The notes below the pieces were generated by a model. That model had not been told where the DNA came from. It worked only from the letters and a program-made list of their open reading frames with translations, and ran no database searches. Shown in pieces: positions 733 to 22,954 of a stretch of 35,408 nt of DNA. The position numbers were made by a program, and so were the translations under genes. Numbering within the stretch: position 1 is the first letter of the stretch; every line of letters starts with the position of its first letter. Source of the DNA: an uncultured Erysipelotrichaceae bacterium (GTDB lineage Bacteria; Bacillota_I; Bacilli_A; RFN20; CAG-826); NCBI GenBank assembly GCA_902763555.1, contig CACWSI010000023.1, forward strand, positions 1-35,408, written 5' to 3'.

Positions 733-2570
733 CGGTTGCCGCTGTTCCAGAAGGTTTACCTGCTGTTGTCACTATTGTCTTAGCTTTAGGCGTCCAAAAG
801 ATGGTCAAAGCCAATACCATTGTGCGTAAATTACCATCTGTTGAAACATTAGGCGCTGTTAGTGTGGTCTGCTCTGATAAGACTGGTACATTAACACAAA
901 ACAAGATGACAGTAGTGCGTGCTTACTTAAATGAGAAGTTAGTGGGTGGAGATGAAATCTTCACCGATGATTATAAATTCTTATCCATGGGTTTATCCCT
1001 TTGTTCTAACGCCTCTGTTGATGACGGGGTGTACGGCGATCCAACTGAAATCGCTTTAGTGGAATACGCTAATAAGATGAATCAACATAAAGGTGATTTA
1101 GAAAAGATTGCTCCACGTATTAATGAATACCCATTTGATTCAGTGCGTAAGATGATGTCCACTCAACACGCTTATGAAGGTAAAAAGATTATCTTCACCA
1201 AAGGTGCGATTGACTCAATCTTAAAAGTGGCTGATCGAATTTTAATCAATGGTAAAGAAAGAAAAATTACCAAAGAAGATAAAGAAAATATTATGAAAGC
1301 CTCTGACACAATGGCAGTGGATGCCCTTCGTGTTTTAGGCCTTGCTTATACATATGCTGATGAATTAAAAGAAGAAGACTTAGTCTTTGTTGGTTTAGTG
1401 GGTATGATTGACCCACCAAGACCAGAATGTAAGAACGCTGTTTCTATCTTCAAAAAAGCGGGTATTACAACCATTATGATTACTGGTGACCATAAGACAA
1501 CCGCTTTAGCGATTGCTAAAGAATTAGGCATCGCTGATGAAAATGGCGAAGCCTTAAGTGGTGATGAAATTGACGAATTAACACTAGAACAATTACAAGA
1601 AAAGGTCAAGACAGTGCACGTCTTTGCCCGTGTTTCTCCTGAAAATAAAGTCCAAATCGTGACTGCTATTAAAGCAAATGGCAATATCGCTGCGATGACT
1701 GGTGATGGTGTTAATGACGCACCAAGCTTAAAAGCCGCTGATATCGGTATTGCTATGGGTATCACTGGTACTGACGTTGCTAAAGGTGCCGCTGATATGG
1801 TCTTAACTGATGATAACTTTGCTTCCATTGAAAAAGCGGTGGAAGAAGGTCGTGGCATTTATACCAACATCAAGAAAACAGTCTTATTCTTATTATCCAC
1901 AAATATTGCGGAAGTTTTAGCGATGTTCGCTGTTGTTATTATGTCTCTCTTCTTAATGGAACATAATTTACCAACGCCATTACTCGCTATCCATATCTTA
2001 TGGGTTAACTTAATTACCGACTCCTTACCAGCGGTAGCCCTCGGTGCCGATGAAAAAGAAAGTGGCATCATGGATGATAAACCACGTAATCCTAAAGAAT
2101 CATTATTCTCTAGAGGTGGTTATTGGGTGACATTTGGTTATGGCTTACTAATTACTATTACCACAGTCTTTGCCTTCTTAATGATTCCAATCTTTGAAGG
2201 TCATGCTCAATCATTAGAACAAATCGCTGAAGTACTAACAAATAACGATGCTATCCGTATGCAATCACAAACTGCAGCGTTCTGTGTCTTATCCTTATCA
2301 GAACTCTTCCATATGTTAGGTATGACTTCCATTAAGAAGTCCTTTGTCCATAACTTCTGGAGCAAGAACTGGTTATTATGGTTATCCTTCGCTTTAGGCG
2401 TTGGCTTACAAGTCGCAGTGGTCAATATTCCTGGCTTAAATGGCTTCTTCTCATGCGCGCCATTAGATATTGCGCACTGGGGTATCGTGCTCGCATTAAG
2501 CGTCGCGCCTGTCATTGTTCACGAGATTGTTGCCCTTGTTCTCTTTATAAAGAGAAAAGTTAGTAGATAA
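714..2570 (+). pseudogene. Ca2+-type P-type ATPase, C-terminal part (M4 to C-terminus)
   Basis: This is the continuation of the upstream ATPase fragment in a different frame; upstream of the ATG the same frame reads DNF, which fits the lumenal end of M4. It holds the M4 cation site (AVAAVPEGLPAV), the phosphorylation motif DKTGTLTQNK (about 877-906), the nucleotide-binding domain, the hinge motifs TGDGVNDAPS and MITGDHKT, and the M5-M10 block with NLITDSLPAVALG, typical of M6 in Ca2+-type pumps. All catalytic motifs are intact, so the damage is confined to the M3-M4 junction. No Shine-Dalgarno precedes the ATG at 714, which argues against independent translation. A product starting there would lack the actuator domain and could not complete the pump cycle. 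Confidence 0.85.
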
Positions 2571-2646
2571 TATTCTCTCCTCTCAGTAGAGTTAGATATT
2601 TTTATAGTAGTGTGCTTAAATATTGATTAACCATTATCATTTAAGC

Positions 2647-4167
2647 ATGCAAAACGAAAAACGCATTGTTATTATCGGTGCCGGTGTGGCTGGTTTATCT
2701 GCAGGCATTTATGCAGAACAGCACGGTTTTCACGCTATCTTATTAGAAAAGAATCCATCAGTTGGTGGTATGTGCACAGGCTGGTATAGAAAAGGTTTTT
2801 ATCTTGATGGCTGTGTTCACTGGTTAACAGGCACTAAAGAAGGCACATTCTTAAACGAGATGTGGAAGAATGTTGATGCCTTCAGAACACAAGATGATAT
2901 TTTATATCTTCCATCTTGGGGTACTTTTGAATACGAAGGTCAAAAGGTTATCTTATGGAGAGATTTAGACCGCGCTGAAAAAGAGTGGAAAGAAATCTCA
3001 CCAGTTGACTCCAAGATGATTCATAAATTCTTTAAGATGGTCAAAGACTTCACTAAAGTGGAACTTCCTTTAGACTTACCATTAAGCATGATTCCATTAA
3101 ATCGTAAGATTGGCTTAGGTATGAAAGTCTTATCAGTCTGGCCATCCTATTTAAAGACCATGTTTATTTCATGCGAAGAATTCGCCGCTAAATTTAAATC
3201 ACCTGCCATTAGATTTGCTTTAACCAAAGCTCAAATCGGTGAAGGTAACTTATTCTCCATGATTTATAGCTACGCTACTGTAGTTATGGGTGATGGTGGT
3301 ATCCCAGTTGGTGCTTCTAAACCAATGGTGGAACGTATGAAAGAAAAATTCATCGCTTTAGGTGGTACTTTAAAATTGAACGCTAATGTCGACAGCGTCA
3401 TTATCGATAATGGTGTGGCTAAGGGTGTCAAACTTATCAATGGTGAAGAATATCAAGCGGACTATGTTGTTTCTTGCTTAGATACAAACTACACCTTAAA
3501 GAGATTATTAAGAGACCAATATAAGTTCCCAGCTTTCCAAAAACGCTTCGATGATCCAGTCAGACATCAAGCTCCAAGCTGCATGTTAATGCACTTCTCT
3601 GTTAAAAAGAACAATAACTTACCAATTCCATATACTTTTGAATGCGAACCATTTAACGTCGCTGGTAATGATATTAATCACTTAACTATTCGTAGTTATG
3701 CCTACGATGAAACATTCACTAGAGGCGATAAAACAGTCCTTTCTGTCATGGTTGATCAAAGTAATGTTGATTATCCATATTGGAGAAAGTTATCTAAGAA
3801 TAGAGCAATGTATCTAAAGATTAAACAAGAAATCGCCGAAGAAGTGAAATCTAGAATTCTTAAGAAACTTCCAGATATCGGCGAATTAGAAACATTAGAT
3901 GTTTCCACTCCATACACATTTAACCATTATGTGAATACCTCTAATGGTGTTTATATGAGTTTCTTATTCTCCAAAAGAGATGCGATGTTCGCCCATAGTG
4001 GTCTTCTTAGAGGTTTAAAGAACTTCTACTTATCTGGACAATGGTTACAAGGTCCTGGTGGTTTACCAATCGCCATGACACAAGGTAAATTTGCTATTCA
4101 AAGAATATGCAAAAAAGAAAAATTATCTTTTGTCTTCTCTCCAGTTCCACAAAAGAAAAAGGCTTAA
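2647..4167 (+). CDS. FAD-dependent oxidoreductase, phytoene desaturase (CrtI)-like family
   Basis: A protein of about 506 residues. The N-terminus carries a Rossmann dinucleotide-binding motif (IVIIGAGVAGLSAGIYAEQHG) followed by an acidic residue in LLEKNPSVGGMC, the usual FAD-binding layout. The C-terminus has the second flavin signature of this family (SGQWLQGPGGLPIAMTQGK). CrtI-like enzymes desaturate or isomerise carotenoids, but many gut Firmicutes have members of unknown substrate and no carotenoid cluster is visible here. The first possible start is TTG at 2623, but the ATG at 2647 begins right before the Rossmann strand and is preferred; neither has a clear Shine-Dalgarno. The family assignment is good; the substrate is unknown. 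Confidence 0.85.
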   Translation: MQNEKRIVIIGAGVAGLSAGIYAEQHGFHAILLEKNPSVGGMCTGWYRKGFYLDGCVHWLTGTKEGTFLNEMWKNVDAFRTQDDILYLPSWGTFEYEGQKVILWRDLDRAEKEWKEISPVDSKMIHKFFKMVKDFTKVELPLDLPLSMIPLNRKIGLGMKVLSVWPSYLKTMFISCEEFAAKFKSPAIRFALTKAQIGEGNLFSMIYSYATVVMGDGGIPVGASKPMVERMKEKFIALGGTLKLNANVDSVIIDNGVAKGVKLINGEEYQADYVVSCLDTNYTLKRLLRDQYKFPAFQKRFDDPVRHQAPSCMLMHFSVKKNNNLPIPYTFECEPFNVAGNDINHLTIRSYAYDETFTRGDKTVLSVMVDQSNVDYPYWRKLSKNRAMYLKIKQEIAEEVKSRILKKLPDIGELETLDVSTPYTFNHYVNTSNGVYMSFLFSKRDAMFAHSGLLRGLKNFYLSGQWLQGPGGLPIAMTQGKFAIQRICKKEKLSFVFSPVPQKKKA

Positions 4168-4201
4168 TCAATCTCACATAAATTAAAAAGATAATTTATT
4201 G

Positions 4202-4230
4202 TTGCAACTTATTTTAATTTTTACTATTAT
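4202..4230 (+). promoter_or_regulatory. Promoter of the tRNA cluster
   Basis: TTGCAA (4202-4207), a 17-nt spacer and TATTAT (4225-4230) form a good vegetative promoter. The expected start is near 4237, about 23 nt before the first tRNA. Confidence 0.65.
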
Positions 4231-4259
4231 ATTTAAGCGACTTAAAGCGAATTAGACCT

Positions 4260-4320
4260 GCCGACTTAGCTCAATTGGTAGAGCAACTGAATCGTAATCA
4301 GTAGGTTGCGGGTTCAATTC
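4260..4320 (+). tRNA. tRNA-Thr(CGU), 3'-truncated
   Basis: The acceptor 5' strand GCCGACT, D arm, anticodon arm ACTGA-ATCGTAA-TCAGT with anticodon CGT, variable loop and the 5' half of the T arm (GCGGG TTCAATT C) are all present. The sequence then stops at tRNA position 61. The 3' side of the T stem, the pairing acceptor strand AGTCGGC, the discriminator base and CCA are all absent, and the next base already belongs to a tRNA-Val. As written it cannot fold into a mature tRNA. A deletion of at least 17 nt, or an assembly collapse, is the simplest reading. Confidence 0.8.
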
Positions 4321-4394
4321 GTATTTAGCTCAGCTGGGAGAGCATCTGTTTGACGTACAGAAGGTCGGCGGTTCGATCCCGTCAGTACCCACCA
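4321..4394 (+). tRNA. tRNA-Val(GAC), missing its first two bases
   Basis: The D arm, anticodon arm TCTGT-TTGACGT-ACAGA (anticodon GAC), T arm GGCGG-TTCGATC-CCGTC and acceptor 3' strand AGTACCC plus ACCA are all present. The acceptor 5' strand should read GGGTATT to pair with AGTACCC, but the sequence starts at GTATT directly after the truncated tRNA-Thr, so two G residues and any spacer are lost. A 5-bp acceptor stem would be left. Confidence 0.8.
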
Positions 4395-4405
4395 AATTAG
4401 TGAAT

Positions 4406-4428
4406 AAGCCCTGACAAAGGGCTTTTTT
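4406..4428 (+). terminator. Intrinsic terminator after tRNA-Val
   Basis: The stem AAGCCC / GGGCTT with loop TGACAAA is followed directly by a T run. Confidence 0.75.
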
Positions 4429-4435
4429 ACAAGAA

Positions 4436-4509
4436 GCACGCGTAGTTTAGTGGTAGAACTTTAGCTTCCCAAGCTAATCGTGCGGGTTCGATTCCCGTCG
4501 CGTGCTCCA
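4436..4509 (+). tRNA. tRNA-Gly(CCC)
   Basis: The complete cloverleaf has acceptor GCACGCG / CGCGTGC, anticodon arm TTAGC-TTCCCAA-GCTAA with anticodon CCC, T arm GCGGG-TTCGATT-CCCGT and an encoded TCCA 3' end. It follows the Val terminator by 8 nt. A second Gly tRNA (GCC) lies on the other strand at 14.7 kb. Confidence 0.92.
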
Positions 4510-4523
4510 TATAATATTAATAG

Positions 4524-4546
4524 CGCTCTTACAAGGAGCGTTTTTT
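4524..4546 (+). terminator. Intrinsic terminator after tRNA-Gly(CCC)
   Basis: The stem CGCTC / GAGCG with a 7-nt loop is followed by six T. Confidence 0.75.
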
Positions 4547-4647
4547 GTTAATAATACTTTTAAAAACTTTGATTTATCCTAGAAAAACTTTGATATATAA
4601 TGGTGGCAATAATTACAAAAGATATTTTTAAATAAGGAGTTAAAAGT

Positions 4648-7777: not shown

Positions 7778-10163
7778 GAAAACTTATCACATTTCTGGAT
7801 TCGATTGCCCAAACTGTGCGCATAAGAGCGAAGCCCATTTAGGCAAACATGAAAAAGTCGATAGTTGTCATATCGATTTTTCTACGAATAAGATGTATAT
7901 CACTTATAAAGAAGAAGAATTAGAAGTCGAAGAAATCAAAAAAGTTATCGCTCAAGTTGAAAGTGATCCATTAGATATTTATGACTTAGATAAGAAAGTG
8001 GTGAAAAAAACTTACCATATCTCTGGTTTTGATTGTCCTAACTGTGCTCATAAATCAGAAGCCCATCTTGCAAATCAAGAAGGCATTCAAGATGCCCATA
8101 TCGACTTCTCCACTAATAAGATGTATATTACATACACCAATAAGGCTTTCAGTATTGAACAAATCAAAAAGATTATTGCTCAAGTGGAAAGTGATCCTTT
8201 AGATATTAGTGAAATTGAAGGTAAAGTCGAACATAAAGAGAGACTCTTTACCCCAAGCATGTGGTTCTTATTAGCAAGAATTCTTATTGCCGTAATTGTC
8301 TTAATTATTAACCTTACTGTTTTAGAAAGATTTGATAATAGTGGTTGGATTAGATTTGCGATTTATACCGCGACAACAGTCTTATTAACATATGATGTTA
8401 CTTGGCGTGTTATTAAACACATTAAGAATCTTAGAAACATCATTGACCATAACTTATTAATTACTATCGCTGTCTTAGGCGCAACCGCTCTAGCGGTTAT
8501 CCACCTCTTAAGAGAAGGTCAAACCGAACATGGTGTTCACTTCGCAATGGAAGCGATGATGGTTGTTGGTTTATTCCAAGTTGGTCAAATCGTTGAAAGA
8601 ATCGCCACTAATAGAAGCAAATTAGCAGTTATGAACGCCATTCAATTAAGAGTGGAATACGCTAACTTATTAAAAGATGGTGAAATCAGAAAGGTTGATC
8701 CAGAAGAATTAGAAATCGGTGATAACGTTGTTATCAGTGCGGGTGAAATGATCCCAGTTGATGGTGAAGTTGTTTCTGGCTCAGCTTATGTTGATAAATC
8801 ATCTTTAACTGGCGAATTTGTCCCAGTGTTAACTGATGAAGATAATAAAGAAGTATTTGCCGGCTGCTTAGTTAAAACAGGTTCTATTACCATTAAGGTA
8901 AATAAGAAATATGAAGATAGTGCAGTCGCTAAGATTATTGAATTAATCTCTAATAGTGGTGAAAAGAAATCCAAAGCAGATGAATTCATCGCTAAGTTTG
9001 CTAAATGGTATACACCTGCTATCGTTATTATCTCTGCTTTAGTGTTACTCATCGGTGGTTTAATTACTAAAGATTGGTCTGAATTTGTGGTCAGAGGATT
9101 AGAAATCCTCGTTACAGGTTGTCCATGTGCGATTGTTATCTCTGTCCCACTTGCTTACTTCGCTAGTGTCGGTTTAGCCAGTAAAAGAGGTATTGTCATT
9201 AAAGGCACAAACTATTTAGATCAATTAAATAACGTTGATAAGATTGTCACTGATAAAACAGGCACTTTAACTCATGGTGTGTTCACCATCACAAAAATCG
9301 CTAATGAGGATGGTGTTAGTGAAGAAGAATTATTAAATGCTTTATATGCAGCAGAATGCTTATCCACTCATCCAATTGCTAAAGCAATTACCCATGATGT
9401 TGATGTTAAAGCTTTAGCGGCTAAGCAAGTTGATTATCAAGAAATCGCTGGCTTTGGTGTTAAGACCACTTATGAAGGTGAAACCATCTATGCTGGTAAC
9501 GCTCAATTCATGAGAAATAATGGTGTAGAACACATTAATGAAGAAGCGATTGGCACAATCGTTCACTGTAAGAAAGGTGACAAATACTTAGGCTACATCG
9601 TCTTATACGATGAAGTGAAAAAAGAAGCCTATGAAATGGTCAAACTCTTACACAAAGAAAAGAAAGGCGTTGTTCTTTTAACTGGCGATAAGAAAGAGAA
9701 TGCTGATTATATCAAAGATGAATTGGGTCTCGACCGTGTCTATAGTGAATTAACCCCAGATCAAAAAACTGAGATTCTCGAAAAAGAAATGGTAGCCACT
9801 AATAAGGCAGTTGCCTTCGTTGGTGATGGCATCAATGATGCCCCAAGCATCATGAGAGCGGATGTTGGTATCGCTATGGGTGCTATCGGTAGTGATATCG
9901 CTGTTGAGAATGCCGATGTCGTGATTATGAACGATGATCCTGCTAAGGTCTATGAAGCCGTGAAGATTGCTCGAATTGCTAGACATACCGCTATCTTCAA
10001 TATTGTCTTCGCCTTACTTGTGAAGTTCGTTGTGGCTATCTTAGTATTAATCCTTGGTAGCCAATATATCCCAATGATTGTTCCAGTCCTTGCGGATACC
10101 GGTTTAACCGTTGTATTAGTTATTAATTCCTTATTAATCTTATATAGAAAATTAAGGAAATAA
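7770..10163 (+). CDS. Heavy-metal P1B-type ATPase (Zn/Cd/Pb class) with two tandem HMA domains
   Basis: A 797-residue metal pump. Two almost identical N-terminal HMA-like domains lie at about residues 3-78 and 79-154, each with FDCPNCAH giving a CxxC pair (Cys13/16 and Cys89/92). The ATPase core follows with actuator motif SLTGEFVP, the transmembrane metal site GCPCAIVIS (about residue 451), DKTGT (Asp near 494), the P1B HP motif STHPIAKA, and GDGINDAPS. An Asp in the last membrane segment (ADTGLTVVL) matches the Zn2+/Cd2+/Pb2+ class, as in ZntA and CadA. A strong Shine-Dalgarno (GGAGGAGG) within the end of arsR drives translation. The operon layout indicates metal-induced export. Confidence 0.93.
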   Translation: MIKKTYHISGFDCPNCAHKSEAHLGKHEKVDSCHIDFSTNKMYITYKEEELEVEEIKKVIAQVESDPLDIYDLDKKVVKKTYHISGFDCPNCAHKSEAHLANQEGIQDAHIDFSTNKMYITYTNKAFSIEQIKKIIAQVESDPLDISEIEGKVEHKERLFTPSMWFLLARILIAVIVLIINLTVLERFDNSGWIRFAIYTATTVLLTYDVTWRVIKHIKNLRNIIDHNLLITIAVLGATALAVIHLLREGQTEHGVHFAMEAMMVVGLFQVGQIVERIATNRSKLAVMNAIQLRVEYANLLKDGEIRKVDPEELEIGDNVVISAGEMIPVDGEVVSGSAYVDKSSLTGEFVPVLTDEDNKEVFAGCLVKTGSITIKVNKKYEDSAVAKIIELISNSGEKKSKADEFIAKFAKWYTPAIVIISALVLLIGGLITKDWSEFVVRGLEILVTGCPCAIVISVPLAYFASVGLASKRGIVIKGTNYLDQLNNVDKIVTDKTGTLTHGVFTITKIANEDGVSEEELLNALYAAECLSTHPIAKAITHDVDVKALAAKQVDYQEIAGFGVKTTYEGETIYAGNAQFMRNNGVEHINEEAIGTIVHCKKGDKYLGYIVLYDEVKKEAYEMVKLLHKEKKGVVLLTGDKKENADYIKDELGLDRVYSELTPDQKTEILEKEMVATNKAVAFVGDGINDAPSIMRADVGIAMGAIGSDIAVENADVVIMNDDPAKVYEAVKIARIARHTAIFNIVFALLVKFVVAILVLILGSQYIPMIVPVLADTGLTVVLVINSLLILYRKLRK
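7776..8231 (+). repeat. Tandem duplication encoding two HMA metal-binding domains
   Basis: Two 228-bp units (7776-8003 and 8004-8231) encode near-identical 76-residue domains. Over the first 22 codons of each unit there is no amino-acid change, but 12 codons differ synonymously. The duplication is therefore not recent and the protein sequence has been held by selection. Confidence 0.85.
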
Positions 10164-17835: not shown

Positions 17836-18025
17836 GTGGGGGTTGATATATAAAAAGTGGGGGTTGATATAATCAATTATCCCCATTTTTTAAAAGAAAA
17901 ATAATCAACCCCATAATAGTGATATCAACCCCTAACGCTATTCTTTTAAAGAATTTTTATCGCTTTATCTAGATTTTTTTGACATAAAAATAAATATCAA
18001 CCCTGAAATTTTTAGGGGGATGATG
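17836..18025 (+). repeat. Array of GGGGTTGAT motifs in both orientations
   Basis: Two direct copies of GTGGGGGTTGATATA lie at 17836-17850 and 17857-17871 (21-bp period). Two inverted copies of ATCAACCCC lie at 17904-17912 and 17924-17932 (20-bp period). A further inverted copy ATCAACCC at 17996-18003 pairs with a degenerate AGGGGGATGAT at 18014-18024. The array fills the 254-bp gap before the membrane-anchored LuxR-type gene, and the last pair overlaps the expected -35 region upstream of the TATAAT at 18035-18040. It may be a set of operator sites. Confidence 0.75.
17857..17891 (+). terminator. Probable terminator of the 16669 gene built from the repeat
   Basis: GTGGGG pairs with CCCCAT, and inside it TTGAT pairs with ATCAA, followed by six T. 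One of the GGGGTTGAT copies is part of this stem. Confidence 0.55.
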
Positions 18026-18065: not shown

Positions 18066-20180
18066 ATGATATTTAAACTATTATCACTTTTAATTATTGC
18101 ACCGACTTTGGCCAATGTTTCTCCTATTGATAACAAGGCTAGTTCTTTAATATCCTCAAGAGAAGATCTTAAAGTAGCAATAAGCGCCGCTAAAGACGGG
18201 GATGTGATTTTAGTAGATGATATTGATTTCACCAGTGGTGTTACTGGTCTATATAACGTTTATGAAAGAATCGAAATCAAAAAGAGCATTACTATCAAAG
18301 GTAAGGATTCAGGCTCTACCTTTAAACGTGGTAGCTTTGATATCTTTGGTGGTAAGACTTACGCTGACTTATTAAACGTAAAATTTGAAAACATCAATTT
18401 CTCACTTTACGAGAATAATAAAAATTTGACCAGTGAAGAATGGAAAGATGAAACTAAGTTACAATATGCTTCCTTCTTCTCCGGGAATGTCAATGCCTCA
18501 TATCGTGGTTGTTCTTTTAAAGGCTACATGAATTATGAAGGTGGCGCTTTATATGGTATGTATGGCAATTATCAAGAAAACCCAGATTATTTAACTCTAT
18601 ATGGCGATCAAACTTCATCTAAACTAAATATCAATCTTGATAAGTGCACATTCACTGATAACGCTGCTTATCACGCTGGTGGAGCGTTGTTCTTTGATGG
18701 CTATCAAGATAATATCTCGATTAATATCAACGAATCAGTTTTTGATAATAACATTTCTGGTACCTTTGATAAAAAGGGCTGGGGAGGTGGCGCGATTTAC
18801 GCTAACGATATTGCCTTAAAAGCGGTGGACGCTAAATTCACTAATAACTTAGCTAACTTTGTTTATCAAGGTGATACTAGTACGCAAGATTCTAGCCAAG
18901 GTGGTGCTATCTGTTTATTCAATTCAGAGTTTGATTTCGATAGTGTTTTAATCGCTAATAACCGCGCTTCCTATGGTGGTGGTCTCTATTTTGGTAACAC
19001 TAATGGTCGTATTATTTCTTCCACGATTGAAAGTAATACCGCTCAAAGAAGCAGCAATGAAGAGATCTTCTATGGCAAGATGGCCAATAGTGAATTAGGT
19101 GGCGCTATTTATTTCACGGGTAGTGGTCATTCTTTAAAAGTTTTAAATTCCAAAATCATCAATAACTTATCTCATAATGTCTATTCAGGTATTGCCCATC
19201 CAATGATTTATGGACAAAACGATATTAATAACATTGAGTTATTCTATTCGTTATACGCTAATAAGCCATTCCTCGCAGAAGAATTTGAATTTGATTTTGA
19301 TAAGCCTGATGACGTTTTAGCGTATGAATCATTCAATATCAAAGGCTCTGTCATCTTTGATGAAATCTATAAAGAAACATTTGTTAGAGATGAGACGCCT
19401 TCTACTGAAAACGGTTATAACCGCTTAACAAGCATTTCAAAAGCCTTAGAAACAGGCTTACTAAGCCTTGATAAAGATAATAACTATCAATTCAATTCCT
19501 CTTCCCTAAAGGACTTTGTGGTGCCTGAACAAATACTTAACGAAATATTTGGTGAAAACGCTAAATATATGAGTGGTTTATCTTTAGGCTCAACCCGTAA
19601 TCCATCATGTAAGCTCAACATCTATAATGGCAAAGATCTCATTGAATCAAGAACTGTTCATTTCCTTGAAGAAATAGCCTTAAGACAATTAGAAAGTACA
19701 AAGCTAAAGAAATTCATCGGCTATAAGGATGAAAACGGTCAATTACTCAATAACAAATTCATCTTTGATGGAAAAGATAATATCGCTTCAATCAATATCT
19801 ACGCTAAATATGAGAATACACCTTTGTTCTATTTCTTAGTAATTGGAGTGCCAATCATCAGTGTTATTCTTATCGCTGGAGTAGTGCTTATCACTCTTCT
19901 TATCATCAAAAAGAAGAAAACTGCTAAACAACCTAAACCATCATTTAGTTTCAGTGATGAAGAAATTAATAAGTTCTTAGCCTGTTATGACAAAGTTCTT
20001 ACCAACAAAGAAAAAGATATTGCTATGGCTATCTTAAAAGGTAAAACCAGAGATGAAATCGCTAGTAAATATTTCATCAGTAAGGCCACAGTTAAGACGC
20101 ATATCAATCACATATACACTAAATTGAATGTTTTTAGCCGTAATGAGTTCATTGATTTGGTGAAAGATAAAATCAAATAA
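18066..20180 (+). CDS. Membrane-anchored regulator: beta-helix-like ectodomain, one TM helix, cytoplasmic LuxR-type HTH
   Basis: A 704-residue protein. A signal peptide (residues 1-17) leads to a long extracellular region. Residues about 30-390 contain repeated short strands with GGALY, GGALFF, GGAIYA, GGAICL and GGLYFG turns followed by NN or TDN, the pattern of right-handed beta-helix and Pmp-like proteins. Residues 390-585 form a further domain. One membrane helix lies at 587-612 (IISVILIAGVVLITLLIIKKKK), and the cytoplasmic tail (about 640-704) is a LuxR/GerE-type HTH: LTNKEKDIAMAILKGKT, then ISKATVKTHINHIYTKL. I infer that it senses something outside and binds DNA directly as a one-component regulator, possibly at the flanking GGGGTTGAT motifs. 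Alternatively the HTH is released by proteolysis. Confidence 0.85.
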   Translation: MIFKLLSLLIIAPTLANVSPIDNKASSLISSREDLKVAISAAKDGDVILVDDIDFTSGVTGLYNVYERIEIKKSITIKGKDSGSTFKRGSFDIFGGKTYADLLNVKFENINFSLYENNKNLTSEEWKDETKLQYASFFSGNVNASYRGCSFKGYMNYEGGALYGMYGNYQENPDYLTLYGDQTSSKLNINLDKCTFTDNAAYHAGGALFFDGYQDNISININESVFDNNISGTFDKKGWGGGAIYANDIALKAVDAKFTNNLANFVYQGDTSTQDSSQGGAICLFNSEFDFDSVLIANNRASYGGGLYFGNTNGRIISSTIESNTAQRSSNEEIFYGKMANSELGGAIYFTGSGHSLKVLNSKIINNLSHNVYSGIAHPMIYGQNDINNIELFYSLYANKPFLAEEFEFDFDKPDDVLAYESFNIKGSVIFDEIYKETFVRDETPSTENGYNRLTSISKALETGLLSLDKDNNYQFNSSSLKDFVVPEQILNEIFGENAKYMSGLSLGSTRNPSCKLNIYNGKDLIESRTVHFLEEIALRQLESTKLKKFIGYKDENGQLLNNKFIFDGKDNIASINIYAKYENTPLFYFLVIGVPIISVILIAGVVLITLLIIKKKKTAKQPKPSFSFSDEEINKFLACYDKVLTNKEKDIAMAILKGKTRDEIASKYFISKATVKTHINHIYTKLNVFSRNEFIDLVKDKIK

Positions 20181-20276: not shown

Positions 20277-21002
20277 ATGAAAAAGAAACTTTTTGTTTTG
20301 TTACCACTTTTAATGGTATCTCTGAGTGCGTGCAATCTTAGTGATTTGATGAACCAATTAAGTGGTGATAATGAAAGCGCTGATAATGATAATGACAATT
20401 CAAGCGGTAATGCCAATAATCAAAACAGCGTCGATGATTCTATTTTTGATAAACCAGAATCACTCAAAAAACTCATGGCCTTTGGTAAAAACACTGGCTT
20501 TGAAATTACAACAGTAGCTTCTGAAAACGAAGGCGGTGGTGGCACGATTGTCATTGGTATGAAAGGCAATGTCTGGTGGGAAATTGACGAAGAAGGCAGT
20601 GGCACAGGTTACCGTTTAGAAAATGGTGTTTGTTCAATTCTCACTTATGATAATGACACTAAAACATGGTCAGTATTAATCGCTAATGCAGGTGAAACAC
20701 AATATGCCACTATGTTTGAAAGCGTTACTAATTATCTTTATGTCGCGAATAACTACTTTGCTAATGAAGGCTTTGCGAGCGATGGCACAGGTAAATACGC
20801 TGGTAGAGATGTTTTGAAATATAAATATCACCGCGCAGTTGCCACTGTTTCTATTGATCACGAATACTATATCGACAAAGATTTAGGCATCAGCCTTTAT
20901 CAATATGCCGGCACCACAAATGAAGATGGTACTTCTTGGGCCAAAATTGAAACAACTTCATTTAAAACTGGTAATGATGTTACCGCTATTTCAGTTGCTT
21001 AA
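20277..21002 (+). CDS. Lipoprotein of unknown function
   Basis: A 241-residue lipoprotein. The signal peptide ends in lipobox LSAC with Cys19. An Asp/Asn/Ser-rich linker (residues 29-52) tethers a globular domain that contains a glycine run (ENEGGGGTIVIGMKG) and many Tyr and Trp residues. I recognise no family; such lipoproteins often act as surface binding or signalling partners. The ATG at 20277 has a clear Shine-Dalgarno (AAAAGGAG), so the open frame from 20214 is not used. It lies 52 nt after the terminator of the membrane regulator and 26 nt before the InlB-repeat surface protein, probably in one transcript with it. Confidence 0.82.
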   Translation: MKKKLFVLLPLLMVSLSACNLSDLMNQLSGDNESADNDNDNSSGNANNQNSVDDSIFDKPESLKKLMAFGKNTGFEITTVASENEGGGGTIVIGMKGNVWWEIDEEGSGTGYRLENGVCSILTYDNDTKTWSVLIANAGETQYATMFESVTNYLYVANNYFANEGFASDGTGKYAGRDVLKYKYHRAVATVSIDHEYYIDKDLGISLYQYAGTTNEDGTSWAKIETTSFKTGNDVTAISVA

Positions 21003-22828: not shown

Positions 22829-22954
22829 ATGAAAAAGATATTTGAAAAACCAGAATTAGAAATTATCTATTTTGAAGGCGATTTAGCCACTGACGATATC
22901 ATCACAGCATCAGGTGAATTGCTAGATCCATTCCCTGGTGGCGACCAAAATTAG
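22829..22954 (+). CDS. 41-residue peptide of the ITASG-type small-protein class
   Basis: A short gene with a strong Shine-Dalgarno (TAGGAG) beginning 12 nt after the surface-protein stop and ending just before a terminator, so it belongs to that operon. The product starts MKKIFEKPELEIIYFEGD, then DDIITASGELLDPFPGGDQN. Small proteins with the plan basic start, KPELEI, Phe-Glu, DIITASG and a polar tail recur widely in gut Firmicutes as I recall, always short and without known function. It has no membrane helix or signal peptide, and its acidic C-terminus suggests a cytosolic or exported leaderless peptide. The coding call is strong; the function is unknown. Confidence 0.75.
   Translation: MKKIFEKPELEIIYFEGDLATDDIITASGELLDPFPGGDQN

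Follow-up and report, generated by a model that had tools for sequence, protein, structure and literature searches.

ToxR and CadC carry a winged-helix domain at the N terminus, inside the cell, and a C-terminal domain outside it. Membrane-bound one-component regulators are common and mostly single pass (PMC10269533). The regulator described here, encoded in the window (the whole stretch of 35,408 nucleotides that was analyzed, from an uncultured low-GC bacterium), is like the transmembrane transcription regulators (TTRs) ToxR, CadC, and TcpP in being one chain with neither kinase nor receiver and in having a DNA-binding domain that acts from the membrane (PMC10269533), an action which for the regulator is predicted. 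As in the TTRs, a DNA-binding domain and at least one transmembrane segment lie on the same chain. It departs from the ToxR/CadC layout in its reversed domain order, its GerE-type HTH, its N-terminal signal peptide, and its beta-helix ectodomain.

The LuxR regulators DadR, CadR, and HcdR of Coriobacteriia, genetically tested activators of neighboring genes (PMC9734109), likewise bear a C-terminal LuxR HTH on a membrane protein, but they have 10 to 12 transmembrane helices, whereas the window regulator is predicted to have one, plus a large secreted ectodomain. With the chlamydial Pmp adhesins it shares the GGA/FxxN beta-helix coils; Pmps, however, are outer-membrane autotransporters, whereas the regulator has no barrel or Pmp_M domain (Pfam) and ends in a transmembrane helix and GerE. 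Among HTH sequences of known structure, those of VraR/LiaR-type response regulators are some of the nearest, but the window regulator, unlike those proteins, lacks a receiver domain, and its locus lacks a partner kinase. The RsgI biomass sensors of Clostridium thermocellum are likewise membrane proteins that sense outside the cell and control transcription (PMC12203970); RsgI, however, is an anti-sigma factor with proteolytic release and no HTH, whereas the window regulator carries one. No report of a beta-helix ectodomain on a membrane-bound one-component regulator was found in searches of an open-access library. What the locus adds is a beta-helix ectodomain on an otherwise known regulator type; it is not a new kind of system. 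The protein is probably a membrane-spanning one-component regulator, sensing at the cell surface and controlling its own promoter and that of a lipoprotein gene.

Domain architecture of the regulator

The regulator is encoded by a single uninterrupted ORF of 704 residues at 18066-20180, in the order signal peptide, beta-helix ectodomain, one transmembrane helix, and C-terminal GerE/LuxR HTH. This one-chain architecture had been proposed in the first-pass annotation, and it was borne out by the ATG and the stop codon at the ends of the ORF and by the Pfam matches. Its parts, in window positions, are as follows:

18066..20180, plus strand: regulator CDS, 704 aa (ATG, stop, Pfam domains, intact orthologues)
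18066..18113, plus strand: predicted signal peptide, about residues 1-16 (hydrophobic stretch, residues 1-19)
18144..19316, plus strand: likely right-handed beta-helix ectodomain, residues 27-417, with Pmp-type coils at about 159-367 (Chlam_PMP, motif spacing, AF2, Foldseek)
19317..19820, plus strand: membrane-proximal region, residues 418-585, for which no family was found
19836..19892, plus strand: predicted transmembrane helix core, residues 591-609, then KKKK (hydropathy 3.05; AF2 helix 586-617)
19995..20159, plus strand: GerE/LuxR HTH, residues 644-698 (PF00196)

The GerE match (PF00196, residues 644-698) had an E value of 5.2e-15 and scored 55.3 bits against a curated cutoff of 23.5. In the AlphaFold2 model, which was poor at full length (mean pLDDT 44) and was used for the HTH part alone, this region forms four confident helices (residues 647-657, 662-669, 673-686, and 692-703). 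The score above the cutoff and the four modeled helices make it, as had been claimed, a canonical LuxR/GerE domain. Its sequence matches in the PDB were VraR, GerE, NarL, and DesR. Pfam returned no receiver domain in the regulator protein, which, with no partner kinase at the locus, upholds the earlier distinction from two-component systems.

The turns and repeats of the ectodomain point to a beta-helix. Chlam_PMP (PF02415) repeats were matched with an E value of 1.1e-9, and a pectate-lyase-like adhesive domain was matched weakly by Pfam at residues 31-120 (E value of 0.0095, below its own cutoff). GGA[I/L] or GGGL turns occur six times (residues 159, 205, 241, 279, 304, and 345; shuffle mean, 0.16), and from residue 205 onward each turn is followed 17 to 21 residues later by F/IxxN. 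In a structural study of Chlamydia Pmps, the GGA(I,L,V)/FxxN alternation was assigned to single beta-helix coils (PMC11166332). Modeled alone from three sequences only, the ectodomain reached a pTM of 0.73 and a mean pLDDT of 61 (AF2). The 50 PDB matches listed by Foldseek were all beta-helix proteins judging by their names, with low TM-scores (0.2-0.4); among the matches listed were P22 tailspike, the pneumococcal adhesin PfbA, pectate lyases, AlgE epimerases, and a Lactobacillus SRRP adhesin. The model is not accurate, but a beta-helix is the likely fold class, so the Chlam_PMP score, the turn spacing, the model, and the PDB names sustain the proposed ectodomain at moderate confidence. A Pmp scan of whole genomes turned out to be uninformative, the 19-residue model being too short at the E value used, even for the window's own genome.

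Residues 510-586 gave no match in Pfam, PDB, and HHalign tests, and the same tests lent no support to an InlB B-repeat (Flg_new), which had been suggested there by eye. Beyond the signal peptide, one strong hydrophobic helix (residues 591-609) was found, and the KKKK that follows it is positive-inside and so fits an outside-to-inside topology. A single pass and a large ectodomain would also suit regulated proteolysis, a variant of the main reading in which binding by the ectodomain would lead to cleavage in the membrane and free the HTH fragment as a soluble regulator, much as in Clostridium thermocellum, where RsgI factors signal through a cut that RseP makes in their transmembrane helix (PMC12203970). 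We regard this variant as unlikely, because no evidence of a cleavage site was found in the regulator, RsgI, an anti-sigma factor without an HTH, is oriented the other way round, and other membrane LuxR-type regulators have been described without cleavage (PMC9734109). Signaling by the uncleaved chain is the reading preferred here.

In the homologue from genome G267, a lipobox signal, LSSC, replaces the plain signal peptide at the N terminus; judging from its sequence, the ectodomain of this protein (L072, 2544-4583), which starts with the lipobox, may be tethered at both ends.

Homologues and the adjoining lipoprotein gene

The same domain order was found in seven other genomes, one of them distant. 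Within the window's own family, 7 of 224 genomes have members, and a phylum sample of 392 genomes yielded no further full-length member. Intact copies, in the numbering of their own sequences, are the following:

L020, 10001-12115: orthologue in an uncultured Bacillales MAG, 89% identical
L054, 6072-8186: orthologue in another genus of the same family, 55% identical
L072 (G267), 2544-4583: orthologue in another genus of the same family, 33% identical
L120, 2685-4505, minus strand: homologue in another family-level lineage of the same class, 29% identical

A partial orthologue in G007 (L021) is 99% identical over the part present, a member from another genus of the same family (L070; 53% identical) lacks its 5' end, and G235 (L073) has a shorter form. 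In L120, both the ectodomain (E value of 5e-13) and the HTH (E value of 6e-6) were matched, with a transmembrane helix between them. The same domain order in related genomes, which the first-pass annotation had proposed to look for, thus exists, and intact orthologues rule out the frameshift at 19.8-19.95 kb that it had considered as a possible fusion of two genes. Besides its main copy, genome G262 has a degenerate N-terminal remnant of the family (L071, about 8415-8672, minus strand). Such a remnant and the patchy distribution would be in keeping with a gene in decay or an ORF fused by accident, but homologues that are intact at 89, 55, 33, and 29% identity, with both ends homologous, refute fusion and decay and make this reading scarcely credible. 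By these sequence comparisons, the domain order is old and real, yet rare and patchy.

No plasmid or phage relative was found, except one GerE-only match. The order and class also contain further large GerE proteins, which were rejected: most are MalT-like, TPR, PAS-like, or multi-transmembrane proteins and do not have this architecture. A C-terminal GerE on multi-transmembrane proteins recurs in the class (L110, L113, L116, L117, L121, L122, L123, L125, and L059), and the class's proteins of this kind (L110, L113, and others) resemble the membrane LuxR regulators of Coriobacteriia.

The regulator gene is followed by

20277..21002, plus strand: partner lipoprotein, 241 aa, lipobox LSAC, Shine-Dalgarno sequence AAGGAG; adjoins the regulator in relatives

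for which 20277 was taken as the start, 20214 in the ORF list being too early. This lipoprotein had no match among solved structures. Its family adjoins the regulator in L020, L021, L054, and L070, and also, divergently transcribed, in L072; it is absent next door to the G411 and G235 homologues. L020 and L021 retain the regulator plus adjoining genes. The first-pass annotation had placed the regulator at the head of a surface-protein island, and of this the conserved next gene stood, while the island as a block did not, since the third gene varies between lineages. That gene encodes 819 residues in G007 (L021, 2035-4494) and 595 in the window, and the island is fast-changing. Between the third gene and a lipase gene lies a conserved peptide of 41 or 42 residues beginning MKKIFEKPELEIIYFEGDLATDDIITASG (window, 22829-22954; L020, 14762-14890), which was missed at the ORF size limit used.

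In the order sample, relatives of the lipoprotein lie directly downstream of a multi-transmembrane GerE protein in G055 (L053, 4361-6521, minus strand) and directly 3' of a histidine kinase/GerE response regulator pair in G123 (L090, 4293-5731). These are 2 of the 10 matches outside the query set, against about 0.03 expected on the rough assumption of about 2 GerE genes per about 1,200 genes. The remaining eight have no GerE gene beside them, so the lipoprotein is not tied to GerE regulators alone.

The conserved lipoprotein neighbor, divergently transcribed in L072, and the lipobox on the G267 homologue itself would agree with a different role for the ectodomain, namely, that the beta-helix is mainly an adhesin or a lipoprotein-binding anchor, that the HTH reports the protein's own secretion or assembly (self-surveillance), and that the lipoprotein is a co-sensor as ToxS is for ToxR. 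This reading seems doubtful to us, as no such lipoprotein lies next door in G411 and G235, and we retain sensing at the cell surface as the preferred one.

A DNA motif flanking the regulator gene

Across the 1.145-Mb assembly, which is about 85% complete, six exact copies of RGGGTTGAT were found, every one of them flanking the regulator gene, five upstream and one downstream; in genome G011, six of eight copies are at the regulator locus. The private flanking motif of the first-pass annotation is thereby confirmed. The elements in the window are as follows:

17839..17848, plus strand: motif copy 1, GGGGTTGATA, conserved in L020
17860..17869, plus strand: motif copy 2, GGGGTTGATA, 21 bp from copy 1, conserved in L020
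17903..17912, minus strand: motif copy 3, GGGGTTGATT, conserved in L020
17923..17932, minus strand: motif copy 4, GGGGTTGATA, 20 bp from copy 3, conserved in L020
17995..18004, minus strand: motif copy 5, AGGGTTGATA, left arm of the promoter-proximal dyad, conserved in L020
18017..18024, plus strand: degenerate half-site GGGATGAT, right arm of the promoter-proximal dyad, 13 nt between arms, identical in L020
18038..18043, plus strand: likely -10 element TATAAT with no good -35, identical in L020
20189..20218: downstream dyad AATCAACCC-N13-GGGTTGAT between the regulator and lipoprotein genes, also a terminator-like hairpin, left arm kept in L054 and L070

All 70 motif bases are the same in the window and in L020, versus 96 of the 120 remaining intergenic bases (Fisher P = 7e-6), in a comparison of two genomes whose mask was drawn with the motif known; fourfold sites of the regulator gene diverge by 42% between the same two. 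L020 lacks the upstream membrane-protein gene and has just a tRNA gene at that place; since the array persists without the membrane-protein gene, it belongs to the regulator. The motif recurs directly past the stop codon in L054 and L070, and in L054 also ahead of the start codon. Among the few genomes compared, those that keep the motif (window, L020, L054, and L070) have a near identical recognition helix throughout, ISK[A/S]TVKTHINHIY; L072, L073, and L120 have a different one, and the motif is absent from them. L073 has instead, upstream of the start, a perfect 10-bp dyad of its own, ATGTCGCAGT-N13-ACTGCGACAT, with the same 13-nt gap as the window dyads. This is the one paired occurrence among five ACTGCGACAT copies in the G235 genome; the remaining sites are single, two of them within genes, and no further target gene was found at them.

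In these comparative tests, the motif behaves like a private operator, which the HTH would bind. Away from the locus, RGGGTTGAT occurs 3 times in 3.4 Mb in genomes with the regulator (G000, G007, and G011) and 64 times in 8.0 Mb in same-genus genomes in which no regulator was found (G003, G004, G008, G010, G012, and G013), and a reversed control pattern gave no such gap between genomes with and without it. The counts suggest a purging of stray sites in the three regulator genomes, which are close relatives.

A consensus promoter scan of the region upstream of the regulator gave no match, and the half-site GGGATGAT (18017-18024) covers the expected -35 position. Because the TATAAT stands without a -35 element and the half-site lies over the -35 position, activation is favored over repression, and the regulator promoter looks activator-dependent as judged from its layout. 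The start codon of the regulator has no Shine-Dalgarno sequence, and the lipoprotein gene has a good one.

For part of the motif, chiefly on the downstream side, a serious competing reading is that these repeats form RNA hairpins. Upstream, folding is better than in shuffled sequences (z = -3.7 and -4.7), and downstream the two arms make a perfect stem with U7 after it (z = -3.3 and -4.8), terminator-like in the window lineage. The repeats might then work as terminators or attenuators, with the HTH not bound to them and its DNA target elsewhere, but we consider this quite improbable. L054 and L070 kept the downstream left half-site, ATCAACCCC, and lost the hairpin; the promoter-proximal dyad is upstream of the TATAAT; a terminator has no need of direct repeats 20 to 21 bp apart; and Rfam gave no family match at the flanking repeats. 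An operator bound by the HTH is the reading we carry forward.

Proposed mechanism and significance

The ectodomain, which we infer to lie at the surface, would be a secreted beta-helix of the adhesin or polysaccharide-binding-protein type that senses something on the cell surface. Binding there would alter the pairing of the single-pass chains, and the putative signal would cross the single transmembrane helix, most likely by dimerization. For Pmps, oligomers built by stacking of the beta-helices have been predicted (PMC11166332), and stacking like theirs fits the pairing step by analogy, although it is not evidence for the window regulator. The paired GerE domains, next to the membrane, would then hold the phased GGGGTTGAT half-sites, which form outward dyads with about 13 nt between arms, plus direct repeats 20 to 21 bp apart. 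As such sites lie in the regulator's promoter and also ahead of the neighboring lipoprotein gene, the module would control itself, presumably by activation, and the lipoprotein.

More tentatively, and with rather less confidence than even, one may see here a family of sensors for surface contact that couple a beta-helix of the adhesin type directly to a LuxR HTH. A lipoprotein family would then be shared by GerE regulators with beta-helix, multi-transmembrane, and two-component sensors, and the private operator would be specific enough for its stray copies to have been purged from the genome.

If the proposed mechanism is true, it would provide a minimal, kinase-free route from cell-surface contact to gene control in small-genome uncultured Bacillota, whose signaling is poorly known, and the beta-helix would join the known ectodomains of membrane-bound regulators. 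A single private operator and one conserved candidate target gene would allow the regulon to be tested directly in a heterologous host.
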